A stretch of DNA of 64,000 nucleotides from Parasphingopyxis marina. Lineage in GTDB: Bacteria > Pseudomonadota > Alphaproteobacteria > Sphingomonadales > Sphingomonadaceae. Position 1 is the first letter of the stretch; every line of letters starts with the position of its first letter. Position numbers and translations under genes: made by a program. This document shows, piece after piece, positions 4,675-52,861 of this stretch. The notes beneath the pieces are model-generated. The model worked only from the letters and a program-made list of their open reading frames with translations. It ran no database searches and was not told the DNA's origin. The DNA lies in assembly GCF_014237875.1 (NCBI RefSeq), contig NZ_JACJVJ010000002.1, forward strand, positions 897,300 through 961,299. Reading direction: 5' to 3'.

Positions 4675-5204
4675 CGAGATTGGGCGCCATCCTTGCGGGC
4701 GGAAAATCCTCCCGCTTCGGGTCGGACAAGGCCGAAGCGATGCTCGACGGGCGGCCGCTGGTCGAGCATGTGTTCGCCGGCCTGCGCAACCAGTGCGACG
4801 AGATCGTACTGTGCGGGCGCGAGCGCGAGGGCATGACATCCCTTCCCGACCGCCCCGGCCCCGATCAGGGCCCGCTCGGCGGCCTCAATGCGGCACTCCA
4901 CCATGCTGCCGAGCGCGGCCATGACGAGGTGTTGAGCGCGGCCTGCGACAATGCCGGCCTGCCCGCCGACCTCGCCGATCAGCTTTCCCCGCCCCCCGCC
5001 TATGCGGACGGCCAGCCGGTAATCGGGCTGTGGCCCGCGCATCTCGCGCCGCTGCTCGACGACTGGATGGCGCGGCAGGATAATCGCGCGATGATGGGAT
5101 GGATCGACGCCTGCGGCGCGCGTTCGGTGCGCCTTAAGGAAAAACCTGCTAATATCAATCAACCCGAAGATCTTACGGAACTGGAGGATCGCCATGGGCT
5201 ATGA
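4671..5204 (+). CDS. mobA: Molybdenum cofactor guanylyltransferase MobA, inserted in the fds operon
   Basis: Attaches GMP to molybdopterin to build the bis-MGD cofactor that FdsA needs. The 177-residue protein opens with the nucleotidyltransferase motif LGAILAGGKSSRFGSDKA; the phosphate loop and Lys are intact, and DQGPLGGLNAAL near 65 is also typical. The usual LxxxDxP acidic motif appears as SAACDNAGLP, with Asn where Met or Thr is common. The ATG is read from an ATGA overlap with fdsB, and the 3' end overlaps fdsA by 11 bases. Known fds operons often end in fdsC/fdhD and fdsD; a mobA between the beta and alpha genes is less usual and suggests cofactor supply matched to apo-enzyme. Confidence 0.9.
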   Translation: MTRLGAILAGGKSSRFGSDKAEAMLDGRPLVEHVFAGLRNQCDEIVLCGREREGMTSLPDRPGPDQGPLGGLNAALHHAAERGHDEVLSAACDNAGLPADLADQLSPPPAYADGQPVIGLWPAHLAPLLDDWMARQDNRAMMGWIDACGARSVRLKEKPANINQPEDLTELEDRHGL

Positions 5205-8043
5205 ACCGCAAAAGGATTTCGGCACGCCTGCGAGCCGATCCGAGAAAATGGTCACCCTGACCATCGACGGCGAGCAAGTGACCGTACCCGAAGGATCGAG
5301 CGTGATGCGCGCGGCCGCGGAGATGAACACCCATATCCCCAAACTCTGCGCGACCGATAACATGAAATCGTTCGGCTCGTGCCGGATGTGCCTCGTCGAG
5401 ATCGAGGGCGCGCGCGGAACCCCGGCATCCTGCACGACGCCCGCTGCCGAAGGCATGGTCGTCCGCACCCAGACGCCGAAGATCGAAAAGCTGCGCCGCG
5501 GCGTGATGGAACTTTACATCTCCGATCACCCGCTCGATTGCCTGACCTGCTCCGCCAATAACGATTGCGAACTGCAGGACGAAGCCGCCGCCGTCGGCCT
5601 GCGCGACGTGCGCTACGGCTATGAGGGCGAGAACCATCTCGAGCTCGAGACCGACAGCTCCAACCCCTATTTCGATTTCGATCCTTCGAAATGCATCGTC
5701 TGTTCGCGCTGCGTGCGCGCCTGTGACGAGGTGCAGGGCACCCTCGCGCTCGCCATCGAGGGCCGCGGTTTCGAATCCAAGGTTTCCGCCGGCACGCCGA
5801 TGGATGACTTTATGTCGAGCGAATGCGTTTCGTGCGGCGCCTGCGTGCAGGCCTGCCCGACCGCGACCCTGCAGGAGAAATCCGTCAAGGAAATCGGCCT
5901 GCCCGACAAGGCGGTCGTCACCACCTGCGCCTATTGCGGCGTCGGCTGCACCTTCCGCGCCGAAATGCGCGGCGAGCAGCTGGTGCGCATGGTGCCGTGG
6001 AAGGACGGCAAGGCCAATCGCGGGCACAGCTGCGTGAAGGGCCGTTTCGCCTGGGGCTATGCAAACCATCAGGAACGCATTCTCAACCCGATGGTCCGCG
6101 AGAGCATCGACCAGCCCTGGCGCGAAGTCAGCTGGGAAGAAGCGCTCACCCATGCGGCCTCCGAGATCAAGCGCATCCAGCAAAAATACGGCACGCGGTC
6201 GGTCGGCGGTATCACCTCGAGCCGCTGCACCAACGAGGAAACCTTCCTCGTCCAGAAGCTGATCCGTGCCGGTTTCCACAATAACAATGTCGATACCTGT
6301 GCCCGGGTCTGCCATTCGCCGACCGGCTATGGCCTCAAGACGACCTTCGGCACATCGGCGGGTACGCAGGATTTCGACAGCGTGGAGGAGAGCGATGTCA
6401 TCCTCGTTTGCGGCGCCAACCCGACCGACGCGCATCCGGTGTTTGCGAGCCGGATGAAGAAGCGGCTGCGCGAAGGCGCGAAGCTGATCGTCATCGATCC
6501 GCGCCGCATCGACCTTGTCCGCACGCCGCATGTCGAGGCCGATCATCATCTCCCGCTCCAGCCCGGCACCAATGTCGCCGTTCTGACCAGCCTCGCCCAT
6601 GTCATCGTCACCGAAGGCCTGGCCGATGAGGATTTCATCCGCGAACGCTGCGACTGGGACGAATATCAGGATTGGGCGGCGTTCGTGTCCGACGAAACCC
6701 ATTCGCCGGAGCGTCTGGAAGCCGTGACCAAGGTTCCGGCCGAAACACTGCGTGAAGCGGCGCGGCTTTTCGCCACAGGCGGCAACGGCGCGATCTATTA
6801 CGGCCTTGGCGTGACCGAACACTCGCAGGGTTCGTCGACCGTCATGGCGATCGCCAACCTCGCCATGGTGACCGGCAATATCGGCCGCAAGGGCGTCGGC
6901 GTGAACCCGCTACGCGGCCAGAATAATGTGCAGGGCGCCTGCGACATGGGCAGCTTCCCGCACGAACTGCCCGGCTATCGCCATATTTCGGACGACGAGA
7001 CGCGCAAGCTGTTCGAAGACGATTGGGGCGTCGAGCTCGATCCCGAACCCGGCCTGCGCATCCCCAACATGCTCGATGCCGCCACCGACGGCGCCTTCAA
7101 GGCGATCTATGTGCAGGGCGAGGACATCCTCCAGTCCGATCCCAACACCAAGCACGTCGCGGCCGGCCTCGAAGCCATGGAATGCGTGATCGTCCACGAT
7201 CTCTTCCTGAATGAAACCGCCAATTACGCGCATATCTTCCTGCCCGGTTCGACCTTCCTCGAGAAGAACGGCACCTTCACCAATGCCGAGCGGCGCATCC
7301 AGCTCGTTCGCCGCGTGATGGAACCGATGAACGGCTATGAGGACTGGGAAGTGACGCAGGAGCTCGCGCGCGCGATGGGCCTCGACTGGAATTACACCCA
7401 CCCCTCGCAGATCATGGACGAGATCGCCCGCCTGACCCCGACCTTCGCCGGCGTCAGCTTCGACAAGATCGACGAGCTGGGATCCATCCAGTGGCCCGCC
7501 AACGACGCCACGCCCGAAGGCACGCCGGTCATGCATGAAGCAGGCTTTGTGCGCGGCAAGGGCAAGTTCGTCGTCACCGACTATGTGCCGACCGACGAGA
7601 AGACCGGGCCGCGTTTCCCGCTGCTGCTCACCACGGGGCGTATCCTGTCGCAGTACAATGTCGGCGCGCAGACCCGGCGGACGGAAAATTCCCGCTGGCA
7701 CGAGGAGGATATCCTCGAAATGCATCCTTCGGACGCCGAAAATCGCGGCCTGAAAACCGGCGACTGGACCAAACTCGCCAGCCGCTCGGGCGAAACCACA
7801 TTGCGGCTGCTCGTCACCGATCGGGTTGCGCCGGGCGTCGTCTACACGACCTTCCACCACCCGGCGACGCAGGCCAATGTCGTTACCACCGACTATTCGG
7901 ACTGGGCGACCAACTGCCCGGAATATAAGGTAACCGCGGTGCAGATCACGCCGTCCAACGGACCGACCGACTGGCAGGAAAGCTATGAGGACTTGGCCGA
8001 ACGTTCGCGCCGGATCGCGGAAACCGTGGAAGCGGCCGAATGA
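5194..8043 (+). CDS. fdsA: Formate dehydrogenase alpha subunit (molybdopterin, Fe-S)
   Basis: Catalytic subunit that oxidises formate to CO2. Of 949 residues, the first 100 form a [2Fe-2S] plant-type domain (cysteines in CATDNMKSFGSCRMC), followed by a Cys-rich linker, two [4Fe-4S] motifs (CIVCSRCVRAC and CVSCGACVQAC) and a further cluster in CAYCGVGC. The bis-MGD domain has the molybdenum ligand at Cys373 in RVCHSPTG, a cysteine and not selenocysteine. The ATG has a good GGAGG ribosome site 6 bases upstream, inside mobA. It receives electrons in the cytoplasm and hands them to FdsG and FdsB. Confidence 0.96.
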   Translation: MGYEPQKDFGTPASRSEKMVTLTIDGEQVTVPEGSSVMRAAAEMNTHIPKLCATDNMKSFGSCRMCLVEIEGARGTPASCTTPAAEGMVVRTQTPKIEKLRRGVMELYISDHPLDCLTCSANNDCELQDEAAAVGLRDVRYGYEGENHLELETDSSNPYFDFDPSKCIVCSRCVRACDEVQGTLALAIEGRGFESKVSAGTPMDDFMSSECVSCGACVQACPTATLQEKSVKEIGLPDKAVVTTCAYCGVGCTFRAEMRGEQLVRMVPWKDGKANRGHSCVKGRFAWGYANHQERILNPMVRESIDQPWREVSWEEALTHAASEIKRIQQKYGTRSVGGITSSRCTNEETFLVQKLIRAGFHNNNVDTCARVCHSPTGYGLKTTFGTSAGTQDFDSVEESDVILVCGANPTDAHPVFASRMKKRLREGAKLIVIDPRRIDLVRTPHVEADHHLPLQPGTNVAVLTSLAHVIVTEGLADEDFIRERCDWDEYQDWAAFVSDETHSPERLEAVTKVPAETLREAARLFATGGNGAIYYGLGVTEHSQGSSTVMAIANLAMVTGNIGRKGVGVNPLRGQNNVQGACDMGSFPHELPGYRHISDDETRKLFEDDWGVELDPEPGLRIPNMLDAATDGAFKAIYVQGEDILQSDPNTKHVAAGLEAMECVIVHDLFLNETANYAHIFLPGSTFLEKNGTFTNAERRIQLVRRVMEPMNGYEDWEVTQELARAMGLDWNYTHPSQIMDEIARLTPTFAGVSFDKIDELGSIQWPANDATPEGTPVMHEAGFVRGKGKFVVTDYVPTDEKTGPRFPLLLTTGRILSQYNVGAQTRRTENSRWHEEDILEMHPSDAENRGLKTGDWTKLASRSGETTLRLLVTDRVAPGVVYTTFHHPATQANVVTTDYSDWATNCPEYKVTAVQITPSNGPTDWQESYEDLAERSRRIAETVEAAE

Positions 8044-12377: not shown

Positions 12378-13490
12378 ATGAAGACCCGCGCCGCCGTTGC
12401 GTTCGAAGCCAAGAAGCCTCTGGAGATCGTCGAACTCGATCTGGAAGGGCCGAAGCAAGGCGAAGTGCTGGTCGAGATCATGGCGACCGGCATCTGCCAT
12501 ACCGACGCCTATACGCTCGACGGGCTGGACAGCGAGGGGCTGTTTCCCTCGATCCTCGGCCATGAAGGCGCCGGGATTGTCCGCGAGATCGGCGCAGGAG
12601 TGACCTCGGTCGCATCGGGCGATCACGTCATCCCGCTCTACACGCCCGAATGCCGCCAGTGTAAAAGCTGCCTGTCCGGCAAAACCAATTTGTGCACCGC
12701 GATCCGCGCGACCCAGGGCCAGGGCCTGATGCCCGACGGCACCAGCCGGTTCAGCTATAAAGGCGAGACGATCTTCCATTATATGGGCTGCTCGACCTTC
12801 TCGAACTTCACCGTGCTGCCCGAGATCGCGGTCGCGAAAATCCGCGAGGATGCGCCGTTCGAGAGCAGCTGCTATATCGGGTGCGGCGTCACCACCGGCG
12901 TCGGCGCAGTGACGAACACGGCAAAAGTGGAACCCGGCGACAATGTCGTCGTCTTCGGTCTCGGCGGCATCGGGCTCAACGTGCTGCAGGGCGCGCGGCT
13001 GGCCGGCGCCGACAAGATTATCGGCGTCGACATCAACCCCGACCGCGAGGAATGGGGCCGCAAGTTCGGCATGACCCATTTCCTCAATACCAAGGGGATG
13101 AGCCGTGACGAGACGATCGCCAAGATCCTCGATCTGACCGATGGCGGCGCCGACTATACTTTCGATTGCACCGGCAATACCGAAGTCATGCGCACCGCGC
13201 TCGAGGCCTGCCATCGCGGCTGGGGCACGAGCATCATCATCGGCGTGGCCGAGGCGGGCAAGGAAATCTCCACCCGACCGTTCCAGCTGGTGACCGGACG
13301 CAACTGGCGCGGCACCGCGTTCGGCGGCGCCAAGGGCCGTACCGACGTTCCCAAAATCGTCGACTGGTATATGAACGGCAAGATCGAAATCGACCCGATG
13401 ATCACCCACACGCTCAGCCTCGAAGAGATCAACAAGGGCTTCGACCTCATGCATGCCGGCGAATCCATCCGGAGCGTCGTCGTCTACTGA
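12378..13490 (+). CDS. adhC: S-(hydroxymethyl)glutathione dehydrogenase (class III alcohol dehydrogenase)
   Basis: Oxidises S-hydroxymethylglutathione, the adduct of formaldehyde and glutathione, to S-formylglutathione with NAD+. The 370 residues match class III zinc alcohol dehydrogenases: catalytic zinc ligands in GICHTDAYT and GHEGAG, the structural-zinc loop [15 protein letters not shown], Rossmann motif [12 protein letters not shown] and the class-typical ending. The ATG at 12378 is chosen because it follows AGGAGAG. Product goes to FghA, then Fds. The cupin gene overlaps its stop by one base, followed by two VOC genes. Confidence 0.95.
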
Positions 13491-14742: not shown

Positions 14743-17112
14743 CTAGAACTCCTTGCGCACAGTCAGCGCCCATTCGCGCGGCTCGCCAACCTGGCTATAG
14801 GCCGTGCCGGCGAAGCCGTAGAGCGCGTCGAACCCGAACGGAATATAATATTCGTCGAACAGGTTGCTGACCTCGAGCGAGATGCTGAGATCATCGTCCG
14901 CATTGCGCCATGTGAGTCGTGCATTGGCGATCGTATAGTCGTCGCGATACAGGAACACGCTGGGATCGAGACCGCGGCCGCGGGCCTGCTCGCCCCGGAA
15001 GGCAACATCGAAGCGCGGCGTCAGCGTGCCCCAGCTGCCATTGGCGCTGAGATCGATCACATATTGGATGCCGAAGCTCCACTGCCATTCGGGCGTCACG
15101 ATCGGATCCTGCAGTTGCAGGCCCGCACCGACCGCCGGATTGATCGACGTATATTCGCCGTCGAGCCAGCTCAGCGCACCGTCGATCGTCAGGCCGTCGA
15201 CGGGCTCGGCGAAGAGCTCCATCTCGATGCCGTAAATCTCGCCGTCGCCGGCATTGGCGACAACCGCGCAGGGCCCGCCGCCATAGGCCGAACAATCGGA
15301 CAGCGGCGTCTGGATGTCGGTATAGTCGTTATAGAAGCCGGCAACGTTGAACCGGACGCGGCGATCGAAGAGATCGGTCTTGAGACCGATTTCATACGCG
15401 GTCACCGTTTCCGGGCCGAACGTGCCCTGAATGGCATGCTGCGGCAGGAACGGCCGCGGCGTCACGCCGCCGCCCTTGAAGCCCGTGCCGACCGTAATAT
15501 AGGCGAGCACTTCGGGCGAGAAGCGATAATCGGCGGAAAGACGCCAATCGATCTGGTCCCCCGAATATTCGGCCGTCAGGCCTTCGAGCGGACCGAGGCC
15601 GAACGGATCGGGCGTCAGCGGCGTGCTGTAATCGAGGTTATGGCGGTGGAAGGTGTAATCCTTCGCCTCCTCGGTATAGCGCAGGCCGCCGGTGATCGTC
15701 AGATCCTCGACCGGGCGCCAGATGACGGTACCGAACAGCGCGAAGGAATCGGCGTTGACCGGATCGTCCCCGACGAACTGGAGCGGCAGGTTGGGAACGA
15801 TGTAGCGGATGTCCTGCTGGGTGAAGTAGGTCGTCCGCTGGTCCGAATAGAAGGCGCCAAGGGTGAAATCGACATTGTCGCCAATCTGGCCGTTGAGGCG
15901 CAGTTCCTGGCTGAAGAACCAATAGTCGAGATCGTTGATACCCGTCGCACCGTTGATCGGCGTGTAATCGTCATCGGTCACGAAAAACTGGGTATATTCG
16001 CGATAGGCCGTGATCGATTGTAGCTGCAGCGAAGAGCTGACATCGAAATCGGCGTGGAACGACAGGCCCCAGCTATCGAGCTCCTTGCGGGGCTCCAGCG
16101 TGTAGGCACCGGTTTGGCCGGACGCAGTCGCCGACCAGTTCGCATAGGTGCAGAAACGGCCGCAGACGAAATAGCTGCCGGGAAGCGGGTTGTTCGCCGC
16201 GCCTGACGTAACCGACAGGGCGCCGAACGTCGCCTGGTTAAAATCGGTGACCGTTTCGGCGGCCTGGTTGGTGTCCGACGTCACATAATAGCCGGTAAGC
16301 ATCAGGTCGATGTCCGGCGTCGGTTGCCATAGCAACGCACTGCGAATACCCGAATAGTTCGTGTCGCCGAGTTCCGCGACAACGCATGAATCGCTGTCGT
16401 TGTTTGCCGGGAGCATACGCTCGATATTGTCGGCGCGGTTGGGGTAGCGGCAGCCATAATCGACCTGGTCGACATAACCGTCCTGTTCCTTGTGGACACC
16501 CGCGACGCGCATGAAGAGCGTATCGGTAAGCGGGAAGTTCGCACCGGCTCGCACGCTGATATAGTCGCGCGCGCCATAGGAGACTTCTGCATAGCCCGAT
16601 GTTTCGGCGTTCGGCCGCTGCGAGATGACGCGGATGGCGCCACCGATCGAGTTACGGCCGGTCAGCGTGCCCTGGGGGCCACGCAGCACTTCGACGCGCT
16701 CGATATCGAGAAGGTCGAAATTCGCGCCGGTCAGCGATGAATAATAGACATCGTCGATATAGATGCCGACGCCGGGCTCGAAGGCCGGGTTGAAGTCGAA
16801 CTGGCCGATACCGCGGATCGACGCGCCCAGCGAATCGCCATAAGCGCCGCCCATTTCGTTGAGGAACACACTCGGCGCCTGGGCCGCGATCGCCTCGACG
16901 TCGGTCTGGTTGCGAGACCGCAGAAGCTCGGCGTCGATGGCTGTGATCGACAGCGGCGTATCCTGAAGCGCTTGCTCGCGGAACTGAGCCGTCACGACGA
17001 TGACACTGCGCTCAGCATCCGCCTCGGCCTGCGCATAAGCCGGCGTCGCGGCCGCGACAGCGGCGAACATGCTGCCTCCGGCCAACAGTGCACGAGTGAT
17101 ATTCCTCTTCAT
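14743..17112 (-). CDS. TonB-dependent outer-membrane receptor
   Basis: 789-residue receptor that takes up a ligand through the outer membrane using TonB energy. Signal peptide of about 27 residues ending in PAYAQA; a TonB-box-like VIVVTAQ near 38; a plug domain with SLGASIRGIGQFD and IERVEVLRGPQGTLTGRNSIGGAI; then a 22-strand barrel ending in an aromatic terminal residue, ALTVRKEF. It lies downstream of the lignostilbene dioxygenase gene on the same strand. In sphingomonads such receptors import lignin-derived biaryls, so a dimeric aromatic is a fair guess for the ligand. The 168-base leader holds a 12-bp palindrome. Confidence 0.93.
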   Translation of the reverse strand: MKRNITRALLAGGSMFAAVAAATPAYAQAEADAERSVIVVTAQFREQALQDTPLSITAIDAELLRSRNQTDVEAIAAQAPSVFLNEMGGAYGDSLGASIRGIGQFDFNPAFEPGVGIYIDDVYYSSLTGANFDLLDIERVEVLRGPQGTLTGRNSIGGAIRVISQRPNAETSGYAEVSYGARDYISVRAGANFPLTDTLFMRVAGVHKEQDGYVDQVDYGCRYPNRADNIERMLPANNDSDSCVVAELGDTNYSGIRSALLWQPTPDIDLMLTGYYVTSDTNQAAETVTDFNQATFGALSVTSGAANNPLPGSYFVCGRFCTYANWSATASGQTGAYTLEPRKELDSWGLSFHADFDVSSSLQLQSITAYREYTQFFVTDDDYTPINGATGINDLDYWFFSQELRLNGQIGDNVDFTLGAFYSDQRTTYFTQQDIRYIVPNLPLQFVGDDPVNADSFALFGTVIWRPVEDLTITGGLRYTEEAKDYTFHRHNLDYSTPLTPDPFGLGPLEGLTAEYSGDQIDWRLSADYRFSPEVLAYITVGTGFKGGGVTPRPFLPQHAIQGTFGPETVTAYEIGLKTDLFDRRVRFNVAGFYNDYTDIQTPLSDCSAYGGGPCAVVANAGDGEIYGIEMELFAEPVDGLTIDGALSWLDGEYTSINPAVGAGLQLQDPIVTPEWQWSFGIQYVIDLSANGSWGTLTPRFDVAFRGEQARGRGLDPSVFLYRDDYTIANARLTWRNADDDLSISLEVSNLFDEYYIPFGFDALYGFAGTAYSQVGEPREWALTVRKEF

Positions 17113-17138
17113 AGCATCCTCCCTCTATTTGTTTCCCG

Positions 17139-17175
17139 TCCCGATTTTTCGGGATCAGGTCTTTAACAATTGTTA
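17139..17175. promoter_or_regulatory. Hairpin and 12-bp palindrome ahead of the TonB receptor gene
   Basis: TAACAATTGTTA at 17164-17175 is a perfect palindrome about 52 bases upstream of the receptor start codon; a 6-bp stem TCCCGA-TTTT-TCGGGA sits between it and the gene at 17139-17154. The palindrome has the size and AT-rich character of a MarR-type operator, and two MarR genes lie close by. Function is inference. Confidence 0.45.
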
Positions 17176-17280
17176 TGAGGGATAATCAGTTCGAGATCGC
17201 GGCACAAGATGGTTCAGGACAAAAGCAGCACGGTGTTGCCAATCTGAAACACACGAAAAATTTGGATAAATCGCAAGGCC

Positions 17281-18756
17281 TTACGCGGCATCCAAAAGGG
17301 CTAGCTGGTCGCTATCGGCCCAGTTGCCGTGCAGGCCGAAACGCAACCGTACCGGAATCTTGGCCCGGGCGATCGGCCCCTTTTCAATATCGGTCGCATC
17401 GAACAGCAACAAATCGGAGCGCTGCTCGTCATGACGATTGGCGACCATGACAATCCAGCCATCGCCCTCGGGCGCGTCGGGCGAGCGCGGAATGAAGCAG
17501 GGTTCCTGCAGGGTCGTCACCGGCCCTGCCCACCATTTCTGCTCCTTGCCGGTTTCGTGATCGACCATACCGAGCGTGTTCATGATCAAGCCGCCGGCGC
17601 TGCCCCCGGCATTTTCCACCGGCTGCGACATATCCATCACGAGCATCCAGCCATAGCGATATTTGCGGCCCTGGAACCGCTCGTCGATACGCGGAAATTC
17701 ACCCAGCATGTCGGTCAGCTGCTCGACGCTTTCAAACTCTTCGGAGTTCGAATTCATGTCGACCGTCCAGCGCGTCAGATGGCTGGCCGCCTCCATCGGA
17801 TTAAACGGCGCGCCATGCACGTCCGGGAAGAAGGGGAACATGTTGTTCTTGGCTTCGGGCGTATCGAAATGGATCTTCGATCCTTCCTGGAAGGCGTTCA
17901 TCACATGGCTGGCGAAGCAATTGTCGCGCTTGAACCAGCGAATATCCTCCTGGGTCGTATCGGCGCGGCGCGGGATAATGCCGAGATAAACAGGCTTGGT
18001 CGTATCGAAACCGAAATGCGGGAGCCCCTGTTCCAACCGTTCCCAGCTGCCGATCGAGGGCACGATATGCAGCACCAGATAATCCGGCGTGATGCCGAAA
18101 TCGTGCATCATGCAATAATAGGGCACCTTGAACCAAACCTCGTGGATCAGCTTCCCTTGCGCGTCGATCTCGTAATAGGTGACATCGTCCGTGCACAGGC
18201 CGCTCGCCGCATAGCCGATCGCCACCATGTTGCCGGTATCGGGATCGATCTTGGGATGGGCGGTGAACGTCTGCCCCGTCATCTTGCCCTCGAAATTCGT
18301 ATAGCCTTCGGTCTCCAGCGTGTTCAGGTCCATCAGCACCGCCGGGGAATCTTCCTTCAGCGCCCAGAGCTTGCCGCCATGGACATAGGCATTGGTGTTC
18401 GCCGTACCGCGATACATGCCCTCCACCGAAGGATCGTCGCCAATCGGATTGCGATAGGCGCCGAACAGCGCCTTGCCCGCCTTGCGCTCCGCGACGAATT
18501 TGTCGGTGCGCACCCAGCGCTGATGAAAGTCGATCCGGCCGTCCTGGAAGCGGAACATGCTGACCGAACCGTCGCCGTTGAAGGCGATGTCGTCGCCCAG
18601 CCGCGGAGGGAATTGGGGATCGGGCTGCACCCGGTAGAAGGCGCCGTCGACCTCCGCCGGAACCTCTCCCTCGATATCCAGGTTGAGCACTTCCCCCTCG
18701 AACCGCGACGGTGTGTTGAAGCCGTTAAAGGAGGGAGTATCCGGAAATTTCGTCAT
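17281..18756 (-). CDS. Lignostilbene-alpha,beta-dioxygenase (carotenoid cleavage oxygenase family)
   Basis: Non-haem iron enzyme that splits the central double bond of hydroxystilbenes such as lignostilbene into two aldehydes (vanillin). The 491-residue protein parallels LsdA along its length. By my count Phe59, Tyr101 and Lys134, the residues that grip the phenol ring in LsdA, are at the same positions. The iron ligands fall at His167, His218, His284 and His476. The start is the ATG at 18756, which follows GAGG at a sensible distance; a TTG 9 bases upstream is less likely. It is divergent from a MarR gene and upstream of the TonB receptor. A natural supplier of its substrate is the LdpA-like gene at 21368. 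Confidence 0.9.
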
Positions 18757-18778
18757 GGGTGACAATCCTCAATCGAGT

Positions 18779-18797
18779 TAGTATGTTGTGCGTACCA
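18779..18797. promoter_or_regulatory. Candidate operator between the dioxygenase and MarR genes
   Basis: TAGTATG-TTGTG-CGTACCA matches 11 of 14 half-site bases of the repeat TTGTATG-N5-CATACAA found at 30753. It lies 23 bases upstream of the dioxygenase start codon, in the 149-base gap shared with the divergent MarR gene, a natural place for that regulator to bind. Confidence 0.4.
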
Positions 18798-18905
18798 TAA
18801 TAGACGATTTGAGGGGAAAAGCCATGCCATCCAGCTTGACTTGGTCCTATTAGATCGCATGAGAACCGTGAACACACGGCAACGAAGGGGCCTAGAGGCA
18901 ACATA

Positions 18906-19361
18906 ATGGGCGACACCGCCGGTACCAAAACCATACCCGAAGAAGGCTTGGGGGCTCTCGACGAGATCCTCGGTTTTCATATCCGCCTCGCGCACAATGC
19001 CGTATACCGGCATTTCACCGAGACATTCGCCGACCTCGGCCTGACGCAGAAACAGGTTTCCGTGCTCTGGCTGATCGAGGATAGCGACGATATCGCGCAG
19101 ACCGATCTCGGCCGCAGGCTGCAGATCGACCGGGCCACGATCATGGCGATCGTCAACCGGCTGCAATCGCGCGGCTATGTCGAGCGGTCGCAGTCAAAGA
19201 CCGACGGACGGCGCCAGACGCTGCACATTACCCCGGCGGGTCATGACGCGCTGCAAAAGGCCTGGACGGCGAACCGCATTCACGAGGAATGGCTCAAGAG
19301 CAAGTTCACGCCGGAAGAGGTCGACGTCTTGATCAACTTCCTGCGCCGCATCCACGACTGA
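18906..19361 (+). CDS. MarR-family transcriptional regulator
   Basis: 151-residue winged-helix regulator. The recognition region reads TQKQVSVLWLIE...AQTDLGRRLQIDRATIMAIVNRLQSRGYVERSQSKTDGRRQTLHIT, split here only by a short linker, which is the classic MarR layout with the wing at DGRRQ. MarR proteins usually repress a divergent gene and are released by a small phenolic ligand. The divergent gene here encodes the lignostilbene dioxygenase, so that gene and the receptor behind it are the likely targets. Its tail faces the MFS gene 26 bases away. Confidence 0.88.
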   Translation: MGDTAGTKTIPEEGLGALDEILGFHIRLAHNAVYRHFTETFADLGLTQKQVSVLWLIEDSDDIAQTDLGRRLQIDRATIMAIVNRLQSRGYVERSQSKTDGRRQTLHITPAGHDALQKAWTANRIHEEWLKSKFTPEEVDVLINFLRRIHD

Positions 19362-19387
19362 GGGCTGCTACGGGCGGATGGACCCGG

Positions 19388-20746
19388 CTAGCCGGCGGGC
19401 TTGCCGGCCGGCGCCTCCGCCAGGTCCGCATCCGCGTCGCGGATCGGCAGCCGCCACAGCAGAAACGCCGAGACGATCGACCCAAGCGCCATGATCGTCG
19501 ATACGGCGAGCAGCTCGTCATTGCCGAGCAGCGTGAACAGATAGCCCGCGATGATCGGCGAGCCGGCCGCGCCCAGGCGGCCGACCCCCAGAACGAAGCC
19601 GGTGCCGGTCGCCCGGGCATAGGCCGGGAAGCCGCGCGCGAAGGCGGCATAATAACCGACGATGGCGGCGTTGGTGAAGAAGCCCGTGGCGACCGTTGCC
19701 CAGCGCCAGCCTTCCAGTGAATCCCGCCCCAGGCCGAAGGTCATGACGGCAGCGCTACCGAGCAGCAGCATGGCGATGGTCGGCCATTTGATATCCCATT
19801 TGCTCAGCAGGAAGCCGAACAGAAAGCCGCCCGCCGCGCCGCCGATATTGGCATAGGTCAGCACGCTGGCGGCCATGGCCGGCGCATAGCCCGGCGGGTA
19901 ATCGGCGACGATCTGCACCGCCCATTTGAGGATATAATAGAAGGTTATGGTGTGGAACATGTAGCCGAACGCGAGCAGCAGGGTGACCGGGCGTAGCCGC
20001 GGGTTGGAGAGGATCGCGGTAACCTTCGGCTTGACCGCATTTTCCGCCAGGATGGGCAGCGCCGAGATCTCGGTCTTTGCGTAGGCCCGGAGCGAGCGGT
20101 TGATCTTCGCGACCGCGCCCTCTGGACGGAGCGCTGCATAATAGGCCGGGGTTTCGGGAATCAGCAGCCACACGATCGGGATCAACGCCGCGGTGACGAT
20201 CGCGCCGAACAGAAAGATAGCGCGCCAGTCATACTCCACGAGCAGCCAGCCCTGCGCCACAAAGCCGCCGATGACCGCGCCGAGCGGATAGCCGATGACA
20301 TAAAGCGCCATCGAAATGCTGCGGCCCTTCTTGCTCGAAGATTCGGCGGTGACCGCATTGGTCGCGGCGAGCATTCCGCCGATGCCGATACCGGTGAGGA
20401 AGCGCCAGATCGTCAGTATGGTCACCCCTGTCGCGGCGTGTGCCATGTACATTCCGACGGCCATCACGGAGAGGCAGAGAAGTATGGTCGGCTTGCGCCC
20501 CATCTTGTCGGCCACGCCGCCAAGAAAAATCGAGCCGAAGCCCATGCCGACAAGCTCTGCGGAGAGTACGATCCCCAAGGCATCGCGCGACACTCCCCAT
20601 TCCTGGGTAATACCCGGCGCCGCAAAGGCGCTCGAAAGCACGTCGAACCCGTCCAGCGCGTTGAGCGCGATCATCAGGAACACGACGACATATTGCCGCC
20701 AGTTCATCGGGTTTTCGTCGATAATCACCCGCGGATCATTACTCAT
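19388..20746 (-). CDS. MFS transporter, aromatic acid:H+ symporter (AAHS) type
   Basis: 452-residue inner-membrane transporter with 12 predicted helices. The first helix carries ALDGFDVLSSAFA, the DGFD signature of the AAHS branch (PcaK, VanK, BenK), and the loop between helices 2 and 3 reads GGVADKMGRKPTI, the MFS motif A. A large central loop lies around 205-245. It is 24 bases downstream of a MarR gene on the same strand, so the pair is one unit. Import of a monoaromatic acid such as vanillate is the best guess; substrate cannot be read from sequence. Confidence 0.85.
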   Translation of the reverse strand: MSNDPRVIIDENPMNWRQYVVVFLMIALNALDGFDVLSSAFAAPGITQEWGVSRDALGIVLSAELVGMGFGSIFLGGVADKMGRKPTILLCLSVMAVGMYMAHAATGVTILTIWRFLTGIGIGGMLAATNAVTAESSSKKGRSISMALYVIGYPLGAVIGGFVAQGWLLVEYDWRAIFLFGAIVTAALIPIVWLLIPETPAYYAALRPEGAVAKINRSLRAYAKTEISALPILAENAVKPKVTAILSNPRLRPVTLLLAFGYMFHTITFYYILKWAVQIVADYPPGYAPAMAASVLTYANIGGAAGGFLFGFLLSKWDIKWPTIAMLLLGSAAVMTFGLGRDSLEGWRWATVATGFFTNAAIVGYYAAFARGFPAYARATGTGFVLGVGRLGAAGSPIIAGYLFTLLGNDELLAVSTIMALGSIVSAFLLWRLPIRDADADLAEAPAGKPAG

Positions 20747-20770
20747 GGCACATTCCCCTCGTCCGCGCTC

Positions 20771-21244
20771 CTAACCCTCGGCGCAAATCCTTTGCAACAG
20801 TTCGATCAGCCGGGCCTTCTCGCCGGAACTGATCTCGGCCAGCATCTTTTCTTCATGGGCCTCGACACGTCGAAAACACTCGGCGAGCATCGCCTCGCCG
20901 TCCGGCGTCAGGTGCAAGGCGAAAGCGCGCTTGTCGCCGGGTACGTCGCGGCGTTCGACGAGACCGCGGTCCATCAGCCCGCCGACGAGCGACACCATGT
21001 TCGCGCGTTGGATCGACAGGGCGCGGCCGAGCTGGCCCTGGTTCAAGCCGGGATTGGCATCGATGACCGCCATGATGGAAACCAGGGTCGGACGCATCCC
21101 GGTGCCCTGCATGGCCTCCCCGAAATCGGTCGCCATGACATTGATCGATCGCCGCAGCCAAAAGCCGGTAAAATCGTTCAGCCTCCCCAGGCTGATCGCT
21201 TCGTCATTGGCAGGCACAACCGTTTGATTTTCGGTTTGAACCAC
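20771..21244 (-). CDS. MarR-family transcriptional regulator
   Basis: 157-residue MarR-type repressor. The DNA-binding part includes NQGQLGRALSIQRANMVSLVGGLMDRG and the wing DVPGDKRAFALHLTPDG. N-terminal residues 20-40 (LNDFTGFWLRRS) form the dimer and ligand region. It is upstream of the AAHS transporter gene and divergent from the NTF2-like/LigW-like pair at 21368, so both could be controlled by its ligand. A spaced inverted repeat lies 13 bases upstream of its start. Confidence 0.88.
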   Translation of the reverse strand: MVQTENQTVVPANDEAISLGRLNDFTGFWLRRSINVMATDFGEAMQGTGMRPTLVSIMAVIDANPGLNQGQLGRALSIQRANMVSLVGGLMDRGLVERRDVPGDKRAFALHLTPDGEAMLAECFRRVEAHEEKMLAEISSGEKARLIELLQRICAEG

Positions 21245-21256
21245 ATCCCCTCCTTG

Positions 21257-21280
21257 AATGTTGTCAATCAGAACAATATT
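21257..21280. promoter_or_regulatory. Inverted repeat in the MarR / NTF2-like intergenic region
   Basis: AATGTTGT, an 8-base spacer, then ACAATATT: 7 of 8 positions are complementary. It is in the 123-base divergent gap, close to the MarR start, where an autoregulatory operator would sit. It shares the core ACAAT with the palindrome ahead of the TonB receptor gene. Confidence 0.45.
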
Positions 21281-21367
21281 GGACGAACGTCAAGAGGCCT
21301 GCCTGTGCCGAGAGGCGCGGCGATGTCAAGAAACAGCCCGGATACTATCGGGCGGGGGAGAGGATAT

Positions 21368-22054
21368 ATGAGCGAGATCGACGAATTGAAGGAAAGCGTC
21401 GCGGCGCTGAGCCACCGTGTGACGCTGATCGAGGATCAGCAGGCGATCCGCAAGCTGCACTACGCCTATGGCTATTATATCGACTATAACTGGCCGCATG
21501 CCGTTGCCGACCTTTTCGCCGAGAATGGCGAGGTCATCTTCCTTTCCGGCATCTATCGCGGGCGCGACAGCATCTACCGGCTTTACGGCACCTGGTTCCA
21601 GGAATTCTTTACGCATAGCGAGCCGGGTCCGGTCGACGGCTTCCTGCTCGATCATTTCCAGATGCAGGACATCATTACCGTCGCCGAAGACGGGCAAACC
21701 GCCAAGGGCCGCTTCCGCGCGTTGCTCGCCGGCGGCAACCACGAGAGCCGCGACTATCATCCCGAAGGCCTGCCCGAGCAATTCTACGAGGCCGGCATCT
21801 ACGAGAATGACTACGTCAAGGAAGACGGCGTCTGGAAAATCAAGCGGCTCGATTATGTCGTCCAGTGGCAGGCCGAATATGCGGACGGCTGGGCAAAGAC
21901 CGAGAGCCACCTGCAACCGGCCGTCGAAACCTATCCCGGCAATCCGCTCGGCCCCGACGAACTGCTGCCCGAACAGCGGCTTACCTGGCCGCACCGCTCG
22001 CCGCTGCATATGCACTATGCGCATCCGGTGATCGGAAAAGCCGTACGGGGATAG
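21368..22054 (+). CDS. NTF2/SnoaL-like protein, candidate LdpA-type diarylpropane lyase
   Basis: 228-residue protein with a short N-terminal coiled stretch (SEIDELKESVAALSHRV) and an NTF2-like cone fold (LIEDQQAIRKLHYAYGYYIDYNWPH...LFAENGEVIF). In Novosphingobium a cofactor-free lyase of this fold, LdpA, removes formaldehyde from diarylpropane diols to give lignostilbene (recalled, not checked). Here the gene sits 2.6 kb from a lignostilbene dioxygenase and 7 kb from glutathione-dependent formaldehyde oxidation, which is the context such a lyase needs. The start has GGGGGAGAGG upstream. NTF2-like proteins also include dehydratases and ring-hydroxylase small subunits, so the reaction is inference. 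Next gene is 52 bases on. Confidence 0.7.
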   Translation: MSEIDELKESVAALSHRVTLIEDQQAIRKLHYAYGYYIDYNWPHAVADLFAENGEVIFLSGIYRGRDSIYRLYGTWFQEFFTHSEPGPVDGFLLDHFQMQDIITVAEDGQTAKGRFRALLAGGNHESRDYHPEGLPEQFYEAGIYENDYVKEDGVWKIKRLDYVVQWQAEYADGWAKTESHLQPAVETYPGNPLGPDELLPEQRLTWPHRSPLHMHYAHPVIGKAVRG

Positions 22055-22106
22055 GCCTCGCAATCGCCGCCGGGGCGGGACGTGGGAAAGCAAGGAGGGG
22101 AACGGT

Positions 22107-23237
22107 ATGGCCGACCAATTGAAATCCGACGGCAGCGTATTGGGTCTGAGCGGCCTCCTGCCCGAACGCACGCCGCGCAAGCGGGTGGGCATGGCGCCTT
22201 CCCCCGGCGAGATCGATCGCAACCCGCCGTATAAGCGCATCGCGACCGAAGAGGCCTGGACCTTTCCCGATCTGGTGAAGGCCCAGGTCGCCTACGCCGA
22301 AAGCGCCGACGCGCCCGACGACCCGTCACTGCGCATGGGAACGATGTTCGCGGGCAACGCGCCGCTGCAGGAAATGCTGCAGGATCTCGGCGATCTGCGC
22401 CTTTCGCATATGGACGATTACGGCATTGACCGGCAGCTGTTGCTGCTGACCTCCCCAGGCGTGCAGGTCGTGCGCCCCGGCGACGGGACTGCACTCGCCC
22501 GTGAAGCCAATGACATCGCCGCCGAAGCCTGCCGCAACCATCCCGATCGCTTCTCCGCCTGCCTCGCCTTCGATCCGCGCGACGTAGCGGGGTCGGTCAA
22601 GGAAATCGAGCGCGGGATGAAGGAGCTCGACCTCGCGGGCGCGGTGCTCAATTCGCATTTCCAGGGTCGCTATATCGACGAGCCCGACTATGAGCCGATC
22701 ATCGAGGCGCTCGCGGCCAACGACGCCGCGCTCTATATCCACCCGACCGCGCCCTGGTTTTCGAAACCCTATGGCGATCGGGGCTTTTTCGGCGCGCTGG
22801 GCGGATTCCCGCACGATGTATGGATCCACACGCTGGGCATCGTCTTTTCGGGGCTGTTCGACAAATATCCCGACTTCCGGCTAGTGATCGGCCATCTCGG
22901 CGAATGCCTGCCGCTGCATCTCTATCGTTTCGACTGGATGCAGAACAATGCCGATGGCATTCCGGGCATGCGCGGCGGCCAGCCGGCGGTAACCCTGAAG
23001 CATCCGGTCAGCCATTATTTCCGCAACAATATCTGGATCACGACCAGCGGCGTCGGCTACGAGCCCGCGGTCAAATTCTGCATGCAGGAAATGGGCGCGG
23101 ACCGCGTACTCTACGCGATGGACTACCCCTATCAGCAAAGCTCCGACGAGGTTGCCGCCTATGACCGCATGGACATCAGCGACGCGGACAAGCTCAAGCT
23201 GATGCAGACCAATGCGGAGGCCGTGTTCCGCCTTTAG
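22107..23237 (+). CDS. LigW-family metal-dependent decarboxylase/hydrolase (amidohydrolase family 2)
   Basis: 376-residue TIM-barrel enzyme of the ACMSD/LigW group. First-strand motif YKRIATEEAW supplies the metal Glu; ALYIHPTAPW, VIGHLGECLPLHLYRFDWM and LYAMDYPYQ supply two His and the Asp, as in LigW. It has an extra N-terminal tail of about 40 residues compared with the paralogues at 28542 and 52862, and an insert around 215-230 (DRGFFGALGGFPHD). Probably removes a carboxyl group from, or hydrolyses, an aromatic acid. It follows the NTF2-like gene; its stop overlaps the SRPBCC stop on the other strand by 4 bases. Confidence 0.82.
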   Translation: MADQLKSDGSVLGLSGLLPERTPRKRVGMAPSPGEIDRNPPYKRIATEEAWTFPDLVKAQVAYAESADAPDDPSLRMGTMFAGNAPLQEMLQDLGDLRLSHMDDYGIDRQLLLLTSPGVQVVRPGDGTALAREANDIAAEACRNHPDRFSACLAFDPRDVAGSVKEIERGMKELDLAGAVLNSHFQGRYIDEPDYEPIIEALAANDAALYIHPTAPWFSKPYGDRGFFGALGGFPHDVWIHTLGIVFSGLFDKYPDFRLVIGHLGECLPLHLYRFDWMQNNADGIPGMRGGQPAVTLKHPVSHYFRNNIWITTSGVGYEPAVKFCMQEMGADRVLYAMDYPYQQSSDEVAAYDRMDISDADKLKLMQTNAEAVFRL

Positions 23238-27863: not shown

Positions 27864-28545
27864 CAAAATGGGTTCAGCTGAGCGAAAACGCTGGTACGAC
27901 GATGCCTGCGGCACCGCCTTCGCCCTCGACATGATCGGCGAACGCTGGTCGATCCTGATCATGCGCGAACTGATGTTCGGCCCGCGCCGCTTCAACGAAT
28001 TGCGCGCCGACCTGCCCGGAATCAGCGCGAATATCCTCACCCAGCGGCTGGAGCGGCTGGAGGATTTGCGTATCCTGAAGAAGCGCAAGCTCCCTCCCCC
28101 GGCTTCCGCCCAGGTCTATGAGCTTACCCAATGGGGCTATGAGGCCGAACCGATCACCCAGGTGCTCGGGAAATGGGCGACCCGCCATCCCGATCACGAT
28201 CCGACCCTGCCGCTGAGCGCGGCGTCGATCATGATGTCGTTCCGCACGATGATCGACGCCGACCGCGCCAAGGGCTTCAAGGCGAAAATCGGCTTCCGGT
28301 TCGGCGAGGACGGTTTCGTCGTGACCCTGGACGGCGGAGAACTGATAACCGAGCGGCGAGAGCCCGACGATGTCGATCTTCTTCTCGCGTGCGAACCGAC
28401 TGTTCTGGCCGCGCTGGTTTACGGCGGCCAACCTGCCGGGGCGCTCGAAAAGGCCGGTGCGCTCGCAATCGAGGGCGACGGTGCCGTCCTCGATCGCTTC
28501 GTGACTTTATTTCCCCTGCCGGAAAAGCTTTTCGGCGAAGACTAG
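27844..28545 (+). CDS. HxlR-family regulator with a C-terminal sterol-carrier-like domain
   Basis: 233-residue regulator. Residues 15-105 are a winged helix of the HxlR type (DDACGTAFALDMIGERWSILIMRELMFGPRRFNELRADLPGIS...). The remaining 125 residues (IMMSFRTMIDADRAKGFKAKIGFRFGEDGF...LLACEPTVLAALVYG) resemble an SCP2-like ligand pocket, so a hydrophobic effector may be sensed. Divergent from the eight-gene operon ending at 23234 and probably its regulator. Start uncertain: ATG 27844 has no ribosome site, ATG 27868 (MGSAERKRWYD) is equally plausible. Its TAG stop overlaps the next gene's stop by 4 bases, tail to tail. Confidence 0.85.
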   Translation: MELQKRTKMGSAERKRWYDDACGTAFALDMIGERWSILIMRELMFGPRRFNELRADLPGISANILTQRLERLEDLRILKKRKLPPPASAQVYELTQWGYEAEPITQVLGKWATRHPDHDPTLPLSAASIMMSFRTMIDADRAKGFKAKIGFRFGEDGFVVTLDGGELITERREPDDVDLLLACEPTVLAALVYGGQPAGALEKAGALAIEGDGAVLDRFVTLFPLPEKLFGED

Positions 28546-29582
28546 GCGCCCACCGGCCCATCGATGTGGAACAGCCCGCGGGCGTTATCCTCCCAGAATT
28601 TTTTCTTCTGGGCGTCGGGCACGCCTTCTTCGGTCATCGGCACTTCCTCGCGGTCCATCTCATAGGGATAGTCCATCGCGTATAGGATATGGTCCTCGCC
28701 CATCTGCTTGGTCGCGAACTTGATCGGTTCGGGGGCGGGCATGCCGCTCGTCGTGATCCAGATATTGCGGCGGATATAGTCGGAGATGTTGGGAAGCTCG
28801 CGCTTGACGGGATTGGGCCGCATCTTGAGGTTCGGCCGGTCGGTCGAATATTGCATATAATCGAAACGGTAGAGCCAATAGGGCAGCCCCTCGCCGAGGT
28901 GACCAAGCACGAATTTGAGCTTGGGGAAGCGGTCGAGCGCGCCCGACAGAATGATCGTCAGCATGTGGGTCGAGACTTCCACCGCGAAGCCGTAAAAGGC
29001 CAGGTCGATGCCGTAATCGGTGAATGCCTTGAGACCGGTCATCGGCGTTTGGGGATGGATATAGATCGGCATGTCGTTGGCTTCGGCCGCTTCGAGGATC
29101 GGCCAGAATTTCTCGTCCGACAGCCATTCGTCATGGGTGTGGCTGTTGATCATGACGCCGCCGAGATCCAGCTTCGTGCGCGCGCGTTCGATCTCGCGGG
29201 CGCTCGCCTCGGGATCCTGCGGCGCGATGCTGGCAAGGCCGGCGAAGCGCGTCGGGTGGCGAGCGATCACATCGACCAGATAATCGTTGACGTCCGGCAT
29301 CGCGCCGACGGCGGTATCCTTGTCGAAAATCTGCAGGCCGGGCGCGGTTTGCGCGAGGACGTGCATGTCGATACCCGCCGCGTCCATTTCGGGAATGCGC
29401 CCTTCCTCGAGATCGAGCAGTAGCGGCAGCTTCACCGTGTCGGGCGCGAACAGCAGCTTGTACATGCCCACGAAACCGGGATCGGAGATCGAGCCGTCCT
29501 CGACGCCCTTCTTGAACAGATCCACGACGAGCGGTGTCATGAATGCTTCTTCGGTGCCGATACGCTTATAGTCTTGAGTCAT
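28542..29582 (-). CDS. LigW-family metal-dependent decarboxylase/hydrolase
   Basis: 346-residue amidohydrolase-2 enzyme close to LigW in layout: YKRIGTEEAF (metal Glu), PIYIHPQTP (His), VLGHLGEGLPYWLYRFDYM (His), LYAMDYPYEMDREEV (Asp). The segment NSHTHDEWLSDEKFWPI parallels NSHTKGEYLDDPKFDPI of the paralogue at 52862. It is probably a decarboxylase of a hydroxylated or methoxylated benzoate, perhaps with a different ring pattern from 52862. 27 bases downstream of the methyltransferase gene in one unit. Confidence 0.83.
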   Translation of the reverse strand: MTQDYKRIGTEEAFMTPLVVDLFKKGVEDGSISDPGFVGMYKLLFAPDTVKLPLLLDLEEGRIPEMDAAGIDMHVLAQTAPGLQIFDKDTAVGAMPDVNDYLVDVIARHPTRFAGLASIAPQDPEASAREIERARTKLDLGGVMINSHTHDEWLSDEKFWPILEAAEANDMPIYIHPQTPMTGLKAFTDYGIDLAFYGFAVEVSTHMLTIILSGALDRFPKLKFVLGHLGEGLPYWLYRFDYMQYSTDRPNLKMRPNPVKRELPNISDYIRRNIWITTSGMPAPEPIKFATKQMGEDHILYAMDYPYEMDREEVPMTEEGVPDAQKKKFWEDNARGLFHIDGPVGA

Positions 29583-32567: not shown

Positions 32568-34148
32568 ATGCGATCCATAGACTATTTCGACCGCGGGCAC
32601 GACCGCGACCCGAACCGCCCCTGCATCGTCGATACCGAAACCGGCGAAAGCTGGACTTTCGCCGAGGTGAAGGCGGAGACCGAACGGGTGGCCGCGGCGA
32701 TGCAGAAGGCGGGCTTCAAAAGCCAGGATCATGTCGGGCTATACGGCCCCAATGGCGGCATGCTGCTGATCGTTTTGCTCGCCATCTGGCGGGTCAACGG
32801 CAAGTGGATCCCGGTCAATACGCGTAACGCCATGGACGCCAATGTCGGCTATATCGATTATGTCCGCTGCCAGTGGATGTTTTACCATTCCAGCCTCGCA
32901 GACGGCGTTACCGAGTTGCGCAGCCGTTGCGATACGCTCGACACCTTTGTCTGTATCGACAAGCCTTGCAGCACGAGCGCGGGCAGCGACGATCCCTCGC
33001 TCGAACAGTTTACCGATGGAGTCTCCGCGGACGATTTCGTCGAGCCCGAGATCGATGCTTTCGGCAACCTTGAAGATATCGTGCTGATCGCGCCGACCGG
33101 CGGCACCACGGGGCCGTCCAAGGGCGCGAACGTCACCAATCTCGGCTGGGGCACGATGATCGAAACCGCTTCGGACGCGATGGGCGGGCGCACCGACAAT
33201 CCGGTGGCGCTGGTATCGGCTCCGATCACCCATGCCGCCGGGCCGATCGCGCTCGCAACCCTGTGCCTTGGCGCGACCCAGGTGATCCTGCCCGGCTTCG
33301 ATGCCGAGCGCGTACTGCGGACGATCGAGGAGTATAAGGTCAGCCACATGTACCTGCCGCCGACGGCCATGTACCAGCTGCTCGCCTCGCCGGAGATCGA
33401 CAAGCACGATTATTCGAGCCTGCGCATCTTCATTCTCGTCGGCTCCCCGTGCAGCCCCGAAAAACTGCGCATCGCCGTCGATACCTTCGGCCCGTGCATG
33501 TGCCAGAGCTATGGCCAGGTCGAATGCCCGATGATCATCGCCTGGCTGCCGCCCGAAGACGTCGCGAAATTCGCGCGCGAGGCCCCCGAAAAGCTCGCTT
33601 CGTGCGGCAAGATATCGCGGTCCATCAAGGTCGCGCTGCTCGACGATGACGGGAACCAGGTGCCGCTCGGCGAAGCCGGCGAGATTTGCGCCCGCGGCGC
33701 GCTGGTCACGCACAGCTATTTCGAGATGCCCGAAGCGACGGCCGAGGCGCGGCAGTTCGGCTGGCACCATACCGGCGATGTCGGCAAGTTCGACGAGGAA
33801 GGCTATCTCTATATCGTCGACCGCAAGAAGGACATGATCGTGTCGGGCGGGTTCAACGTCTTCACCGCCGAAGTCGAGGCGGCGATCACCGAACTGGCGC
33901 AAGTGCGCGAGGCCGTGGTCTTCGGGATTCCGCACGAAAAATGGGGCGAGCAGGTCCACGCCACCGTCGTCGCCGACGGAATCACCGAGGACGAGATCAT
34001 CGCCCATGCCAAGGCTCGGCTCGGCGGCGTCAAGGCGCCCAAGACTGTCGAGTTCGTCGACAGCATTCCGCGTACCGCGGCGGGCAAGATGGACAAGAAG
34101 GTCCTGCGCCGGAAATATTGGGGAGACAGCGACCGGCTCGTCAATTAG
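32568..34148 (+). CDS. AMP-forming acyl-CoA synthetase
   Basis: 526-residue ANL-superfamily ligase that activates a carboxylic acid to its CoA thioester through an acyl-AMP. The phosphate loop APTGGTTGPSKGA is at 175-187, the adenine-site SYGQVECP near 300, the GWHHTGD motif near 400, and the catalytic Lys in AAGKMDKK near 510. It resembles long-chain/aryl-CoA ligases; with GSTs upstream and dehydrogenases downstream, an arylpropanoid acid is plausible. It starts 4 bases after the second GST stop. Confidence 0.88.
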   Translation: MRSIDYFDRGHDRDPNRPCIVDTETGESWTFAEVKAETERVAAAMQKAGFKSQDHVGLYGPNGGMLLIVLLAIWRVNGKWIPVNTRNAMDANVGYIDYVRCQWMFYHSSLADGVTELRSRCDTLDTFVCIDKPCSTSAGSDDPSLEQFTDGVSADDFVEPEIDAFGNLEDIVLIAPTGGTTGPSKGANVTNLGWGTMIETASDAMGGRTDNPVALVSAPITHAAGPIALATLCLGATQVILPGFDAERVLRTIEEYKVSHMYLPPTAMYQLLASPEIDKHDYSSLRIFILVGSPCSPEKLRIAVDTFGPCMCQSYGQVECPMIIAWLPPEDVAKFAREAPEKLASCGKISRSIKVALLDDDGNQVPLGEAGEICARGALVTHSYFEMPEATAEARQFGWHHTGDVGKFDEEGYLYIVDRKKDMIVSGGFNVFTAEVEAAITELAQVREAVVFGIPHEKWGEQVHATVVADGITEDEIIAHAKARLGGVKAPKTVEFVDSIPRTAAGKMDKKVLRRKYWGDSDRLVN

Positions 34149-34186
34149 GCCGGACGGAAAACAAGAAGAGCGGAAAGAGGATCGCC

Positions 34187-48202: not shown

Positions 48203-48203
48203 G

Positions 48204-52844: not shown

Positions 52845-52861
52845 AAAAAAGCGGAGAAGAC

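Follow-up and report, generated by a model that had tools for sequence, protein, structure and literature searches.

Which class of lignin-type dimer is degraded by the genes at positions 14743-23237 of a 64,000-nucleotide stretch of Parasphingopyxis marina DNA, and what a LigW-like decarboxylase gene is doing among them, are the questions raised by this locus. The stretch, referred to here as the window, comprises positions 897300-961299 of contig 2 of a 3.3-Mb genome assembled in five contigs. An initial annotation had read the cluster as a candidate beta-1 (diarylpropane) module, in which an LdpA-like lyase and an LsdA-type lignostilbene dioxygenase are encoded with import genes and regulators and beside genes of formaldehyde oxidation; as judged from Pfam, NCBIfam, and PDB profile matches, every gene that it listed is present where it had been placed. 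The comparisons described below indicate that the locus is probably a beta-1 catabolic module of this general kind, equipped with a dedicated LigW-related decarboxylase whose gene, directly behind ldpA, had gone unmentioned.

The lyase gene (21368-22054, plus strand) encodes an NTF2/SnoaL_4 protein of 228 residues (PF13577, 89 bits). Its top PDB matches, 8abt, 8abu, and 8abv (323-306 bits, near full length; the next PDB match scores 28 bits), are entries named only “SnoaL-like domain-containing protein” that we take to be LdpA. The protein is 64-66% identical to LdpA of Novosphingobium aromaticivorans and keeps His97, as does 8abt, with Gln at this position in 8abu. In a tree of 96 rows, the window lyase, both characterized LdpAs, and the rows from 80 named ldpA loci (the best 80 of 315 relatives) fall in a single clade of 83 rows (100/99), within which the window lyase belongs to a five-row clade (98/84) that is sister to a 70-row core LdpA. 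A second tree of 49 rows, in which 12 PcfL rows were picked by a neighboring ligW, agrees (LdpA side, 100/99; PcfL, 100/100; grouping with core LdpA, 97/92; sister clade, 96/81), and in neither tree was the grouping with dehydratases seen that the initial annotation had named as the outcome that would count against an LdpA-like lyase. The alignment with LdpA and PcfL that it had proposed points the same way. At 26 positions separating core LdpA from PcfL, the window lyase is LdpA-like at 22, PcfL-like at one, and neither at three (80% agreement was required, and the 13 “PcfL” rows used included one, L184, that is not a PcfL); at 60 positions invariant in LdpA and PcfL together it agrees at 58. 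For LdpA itself, a set of eleven active-site residues is mentioned in PMC11323797. On sequence grounds, the protein is a member of the LdpA clade, apart from PcfL and the other paralogues, and the earlier identification as an LdpA-like lyase is upheld to that extent.

The distinction is of some consequence because the surroundings of the lyase also resemble the PcfL-LsdD-FerD-LigW pathway for beta-5 (phenylcoumaran) dimers of N. aromaticivorans, with which the window shares a homologous lyase, the dioxygenase type, the MarR family of the adjoining regulator, and a ferD-ligW pair (PMC11323797). The dioxygenase gene and that of its regulator have their counterparts in lsdD-marR of the beta-5 locus in N. 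aromaticivorans, and ferD-ligW lies 29 kb away in a beta-5 side cluster (51387-55563, plus strand) of a ferD-like aldehyde dehydrogenase, ligW (52844-53908), and a major facilitator superfamily (MFS) transporter, which are 72, 68, and 48% identical to the ferD-ligW-MFS row of locus L142. A beta-5 module, with the NTF2 protein acting as a PcfL alongside LsdD and LigW, is nevertheless highly improbable. The protein is 66% identical to LdpA against 47% to the syntenic PcfL of L142, itself 45% identical to LdpA, which fits the published 44% (PMC11323797); it stands outside the PcfL clade; and only one of the 26 diagnostic positions is PcfL-like. Identity, tree, and diagnostic positions thus rule out PcfL for this protein. 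Nor is a PcfL found, by identity or tree, among the four lyase homologues detected in the genome, the other three being at most 52% identical to that of L142.

The gene that follows ldpA (22107-23237, plus strand; labeled AH) lies 52 bp behind it, has AGGAGG preceding its ATG, and encodes an amidohydrolase-family protein (PF04909) with 44% identity to LigW of N. aromaticivorans (4inf). Its relatives split into two groups, at 64-78% and at no more than 47% identity, and the first of these was counted across 397 genomes of the Sphingomonadaceae, the family of the window. The decarboxylase was found in 29 of them and LdpA in 47, the latter being called when the best match was at least 60% identical to that of N. 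aromaticivorans, which leaves out G083 at 48%. Both were found in 28 genomes, the decarboxylase alone in one, LdpA alone in 19, and neither in 349 (Fisher p = 2.7e-29, with relatedness ignored); per-genome scoring took only part of the first-look candidates (4 to 6 for the decarboxylase), so that a miss in these counts is not a proven absence. The lone carrier, G202, is a 77% complete genome with a gene fragment containing a stop. Where both genes lie on one contig (26 of the 28 genomes), the decarboxylase is invariably encoded downstream of ldpA in the same orientation, at a distance of 42 to 1367 bp; the assemblies of G003 and G184 are broken and place the two genes on separate contigs.

Ten of 326 genomes sampled across the order have the decarboxylase, nine of these together with LdpA, and eight of the ten are also in the family sample; in G131, from another family, the pair is 513 bp apart. 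Class-level sampling yielded two carriers among 385 at an E value of 1e-85 or better, both from the family of the window. Among the 80 named loci, the decarboxylase occurs in 16, Parvularcula included, at 70-78% identity and directly downstream of ldpA in all 16, although named loci and genomes partly overlap (for example, L078/G043 and L136/G087) and the two counts are therefore not independent.

What such an enzyme might do can be considered from the mechanism of LigW, in which Mn is bound by Glu19, His188, and Asp314, Asp314 protonates the carbon, and CO2 leaves (PMC6031855, PMC8187880). Of the residues contacting 5-carboxyvanillate, Tyr51 and Arg58 hold its C1 carboxylate, and His241, Arg252, and Asp314 match the residues binding the leaving carboxylate (PMC6305744). 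In all 21 paired decarboxylases aligned (17 plus 4 rows), Glu19, His188, Phe212, His241, Arg252, Met256, Asp314, and Tyr317 are kept, a likeness to LigW (4inf/4qrn) that takes in the metal ligands, the general acid, and the leaving-carboxylate residues. The same 21 rows, by contrast, have Phe for Tyr51 and a five-residue gap at Arg58. As these binders are missing, the protein encoded at 22107 is not classed as LigW. Tyr51 and Arg58 are both found in seven LigW rows from the loci, in the LigW of the window, and in 4inf; the SYK-6 LigW (4icm) keeps the Tyr, and its Arg falls in the column preceding that of Arg58, which is occupied by Pro.

From these residues we infer that the paired protein is a decarboxylase for 5-carboxyguaiacyl compounds without a C1 carboxylate, operating in a variant beta-1 pathway; the room on the C1 side of the substrate may perhaps be larger than in LigW. 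A 5-carboxylated beta-1 dimer, its stilbene, or 5-carboxyvanillin would be our guess at the substrate. It is possible, though on the doubtful side, that ldpA and the decarboxylase make up an undescribed two-gene unit in which the 5-carboxyl is taken by the decarboxylase from carboxylated beta-1 units, such as would be left after a neighboring beta-5 or 5-5 bond is cut, so that condensed fragments become substrates of the LdpA route, a branch that SYK-6 would be without.

A plainer account of the same gene is that it encodes an ordinary decarboxylase for 5-carboxyvanillate or another o-hydroxybenzoate, hitch-hiking by ldpA in one lineage. This we regard as somewhat unlikely, since the window already holds a LigW of 69% identity to 4inf (52844-53908), the adjacency is maintained in every same-contig case over many genera and into a second family, and Tyr51 and Arg58 are lost in each aligned row, but the relationship and residues shared with LigW do speak for it. 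The carrier genomes are also related, so that the co-occurrence counts are not independent, and G876, a 99% complete genome that has the gene in a cluster with three LigW-like genes (32-41%) and no LdpA match, speaks for it too and weighs against a decarboxylase dedicated to the beta-1 route. Further points against a dedicated decarboxylase are that no paired decarboxylase was found in 19 of the 47 LdpA genomes, making it dispensable for the route as known; that a pairwise alignment places Gln, although never Arg, at Arg58 in three of 17 decarboxylase rows; and that a LigW relative at 28542-29582 (43% identical to LigW), adjoining a methyltransferase gene, also has Phe and a gap at Tyr51 and Arg58, so that this loss is not unique.

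The position of the window lyase in a sister clade of core LdpA adds to these reservations, as its substrate may differ and the other members of that clade (L070, L078, L073, and L075) have no paired decarboxylase in the ldpA flanks examined. Carried further, this would make the lyase a neofunctionalized LdpA relative, a gamma-formaldehyde lyase for some other dimer (for example, a carboxylated or syringyl one), with the decarboxylase acting before or after it. The sister clade recurs in both trees, the window lyase has a long branch, and Novosphingobium ovatum has one copy from each clade, all of which are in keeping with such a divergence; agreement with LdpA at nearly all of the invariant positions and at most of the diagnostic ones makes it unlikely. 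The two N. ovatum copies, one in the sister clade of the window lyase (L073) and one in the core clade (L086), offer a natural test for a functional split.

The stilbene-cleaving step of a beta-1 module would fall to the lignostilbene dioxygenase encoded at 17281-18756 on the minus strand (PF03055, 466 bits; NF053778, 900 bits against a cut-off of 800). The initial annotation had recognized a carotenoid oxygenase with Phe59, Tyr101, Lys134, and the iron-binding histidines, and had likened it to LsdA. With numbering from the ATG at 18756 these residues are indeed present, but they match LSD4, and the assignment to the LsdA type gives way to an LsdD/NOV1 type: the closest PDB entries are 5j53 (844 bits), which we take to be NOV1, and 6xm6 (841 bits), presumably LSD4 of Sphingobium sp. 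SYK-6, against 701 bits for 6ojr, the LsdA of TMY1009. Identity to LSD4 is 71% over 484 residues, and all 12 residues compared are the same (Phe59, Tyr101, Asn120, Lys134, Ser283, Phe307, Phe309, Glu353, Phe354, Ser386, Ala387, and Leu475). His167, His218, His284, and His476, presumably the iron ligands, are conserved as well. LsdD serves the beta-5 pathway in N. aromaticivorans (PMC11323797); LSD4 (LsdD) of SYK-6 shows similar specificity in the cleavage of lignostilbene and of DCA-S (PMC8191317), so that a dioxygenase of the LsdD type can serve a beta-1 route. Near ldpA, NOV2-type dioxygenases (at least 53% identical to the one of this genome) occur in 34 of the 80 loci and LsdD-type ones (at least 69% identical to that of the window) in nine. 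The NOV2-type enzyme of this genome is encoded elsewhere, in L035 (NF053780, 836; cut-off, 650).

Divergent from the dioxygenase gene is that of a MarR regulator of the Saro_0803 family (18906-19361, plus strand; NF053777, 235.6 against a cut-off of 200). Since Saro_0802 is listed as LsdD (table in PMC12997858), lsdD-marR is a conserved pair, which was also found in eight of the 80 named loci. A search of the intergenic region in the window and eight loci for an exact 7-base palindrome with a gap of at most 9 gave none. Words such as GTATGTTGTGC in the window intergenic region (18757-18905) are common to L117 and L128, and CATACAA is shared too; they may belong to an operator.

The route that these genes would support can be outlined as follows. 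The dimer would be taken up through the TonB receptor and the MFS transporter, and the lyase, if it acts as its clade membership suggests, would release the gamma carbon of an erythro-1,2-diaryl-1,3-propanediol as formaldehyde, leaving a lignostilbene. The dioxygenase, with its active-site residues identical to those of LSD4, would cleave the stilbene to vanillin-type aldehydes, for which an onward path could lie in the genes of protocatechuate 4,5-cleavage that stop at the left edge of the window, and the formaldehyde would pass to AdhC, FghA, and formate dehydrogenase. The Mn-type decarboxylase would most likely act on guaiacyl units that lack a para carboxylate, taking off the carboxyl group ortho to the phenol, and carboxylated beta-1 dimers, if the guess at the substrate is right, would thereby also enter the route. 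The proposal that import, deformylation, and cleavage are encoded together thus appears largely sound as far as gene content can indicate, once the dioxygenase is reassigned to the LsdD type and the overlooked decarboxylase is included.

As an LdpA-lignostilbene dioxygenase module, the locus is a known kind of system; with a dedicated decarboxylase, it is a variant. The genome G210, which we take to be that of SYK-6, encodes an LdpA with no difference from 8abv in 222 residues; its ldpA has an adjacent short-chain dehydrogenase/reductase (SDR) gene, but the paired decarboxylase was not found in this genome (best relative, 44%), so that the organism behind much of the pathway work would not have revealed this gene. 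Neither an ldpA-linked amidohydrolase nor SLG_12660 is mentioned in the literature searched, which did not cover the primary LdpA papers. The window resembles the LdpA-LsdA beta-1 pathway of SYK-6 and N. aromaticivorans (PMC12997858), by which a linkage that is rare in lignin is broken, in that related ldpA loci have a TonB receptor and genes for protocatechuate 4,5-cleavage nearby, and differs from it in the LsdD-type dioxygenase, in having the LigW-like decarboxylase behind ldpA, and in lacking an SDR beside ldpA. The ldpA-adjacent SDRs of G210 and G131 find their best match in the window (52 and 55%) at 56093-57013 (plus strand; Pfam adh_short), a candidate LdpB. A decarboxylase that travels with LdpA hints at the natural substrates of the route, may open it to further lignin fragments, and could serve as a tool for adding or removing carboxyl groups on guaiacyl compounds.

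Formaldehyde released by the lyase had been proposed to be taken by nearby adhC, fghA, and fds genes, and these are present. All lie on the plus strand: adhC, for S-(hydroxymethyl)glutathione dehydrogenase (12381-13490; TIGR02818, 609, cut-off 544); fghA, for S-formylglutathione hydrolase (1847-2686; TIGR02821, 428, cut-off 282); and fds-type formate dehydrogenase genes, assigned with Pfam, of which that of the alpha subunit (5194-8043) scores 933 with TIGR01591 (cut-off, 666) and those of the small subunits (2683-3135 and 3139-4674), while below the NCBIfam cut-offs, fit fdsG/fdsB. The linkage to ldpA is not conserved: at a match of at least 40%, adhC was found near ldpA in none of the 80 loci, 61 of which include an upstream flank of 7.9 kb or more, with a single 30% match in L082. 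This makes the formaldehyde linkage weak evidence and is one more point against the proposed module. The genome has no adhC above the cut-off other than the one at 12381, as would be expected of a housekeeping gene no less than of a dedicated one. In the same part of the window is a PurU formyltetrahydrofolate deformylase (987-1850, above cut-off), and a FolD-type enzyme is encoded at 41322-42191; we take these folate C1 genes to be of the kind needed by tetrahydrofolate-dependent O-demethylation.

The remaining genes of the locus concern transport and regulation. A second MarR regulator (20771-21244, minus strand; PF12802) is divergent from ldpA and is followed by an MFS transporter of aromatic-acid type (19388-20746, minus strand; PF07690), for which the best match, TIGR00895 for aromatic acid:H+ symport, scores 271 bits, below its cut-off of 418.55. 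A genome of the same genus (L173) has a related MarR (50%) and MFS transporter (84%) near its LdpA relative. The TonB-dependent receptor (14743-17112, minus strand; PF00593, PF07715) has counterparts of about 54-58% identity in 34 of the 80 loci, where they lie downstream of ldpA and no more than 3.5 kb from it; in the window, the receptor gene lies on the opposite side of ldpA and on the opposite strand. The DNA immediately to the left of the window carries what were read as ligI, ligU, ligK, a LysR regulator gene, ligJ, ligA, ligB, and ligC; ligB matches the LigB family (NF009903, 508; cut-off, 317), and the other names were assigned from similarity between loci and from what we take to be the order of lig genes. 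Elsewhere in the window, an aromatic amino acid lyase (58513-60153; PF00221, 444 bits) that fails to reach the NCBIfam cut-offs of the ammonia-lyases for phenylalanine and histidine lies in a lignin-type island, and a flavin adenine dinucleotide-linked oxidase (46784-48259; GlcD-like, below cut-off) and a GMC oxidoreductase (42929-44590) may be dimer oxidases.

Comparison of the lyases also brought out a third clade of LdpA/PcfL-like proteins (97/94 in the 49-row tree) that is neither LdpA nor PcfL. Its members are found at L037:9469-10149, L088:9107, L096:3622, L099:2157, L105:18701, L109:2163, L111:2157, L117:15225, L128:15026, and L080:8034, the first being the copy of this genome, at 77-78% identity to the two members compared. 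The paralogues of L105, L117, and L128 had been candidates for PcfL and were ruled out by gene order and by their place in this clade; another candidate, L184, is only 39% identical and joined a different branch. Two further paralogues of the genome, at L035:14946-15659 and L036:8938-9591, fall outside all three clades and are at most 53% identical to any row compared. In four loci (L096, L099, L109, and L111), the third-clade lyase gene adjoins those of a pyrroloquinoline quinone (PQQ) dehydrogenase and an aldehyde dehydrogenase. The window itself encodes a PQQ dehydrogenase with a cytochrome domain (33686-36304), followed by an aldehyde dehydrogenase (36387-37895) near StyD (619 bits; cut-off, 850).

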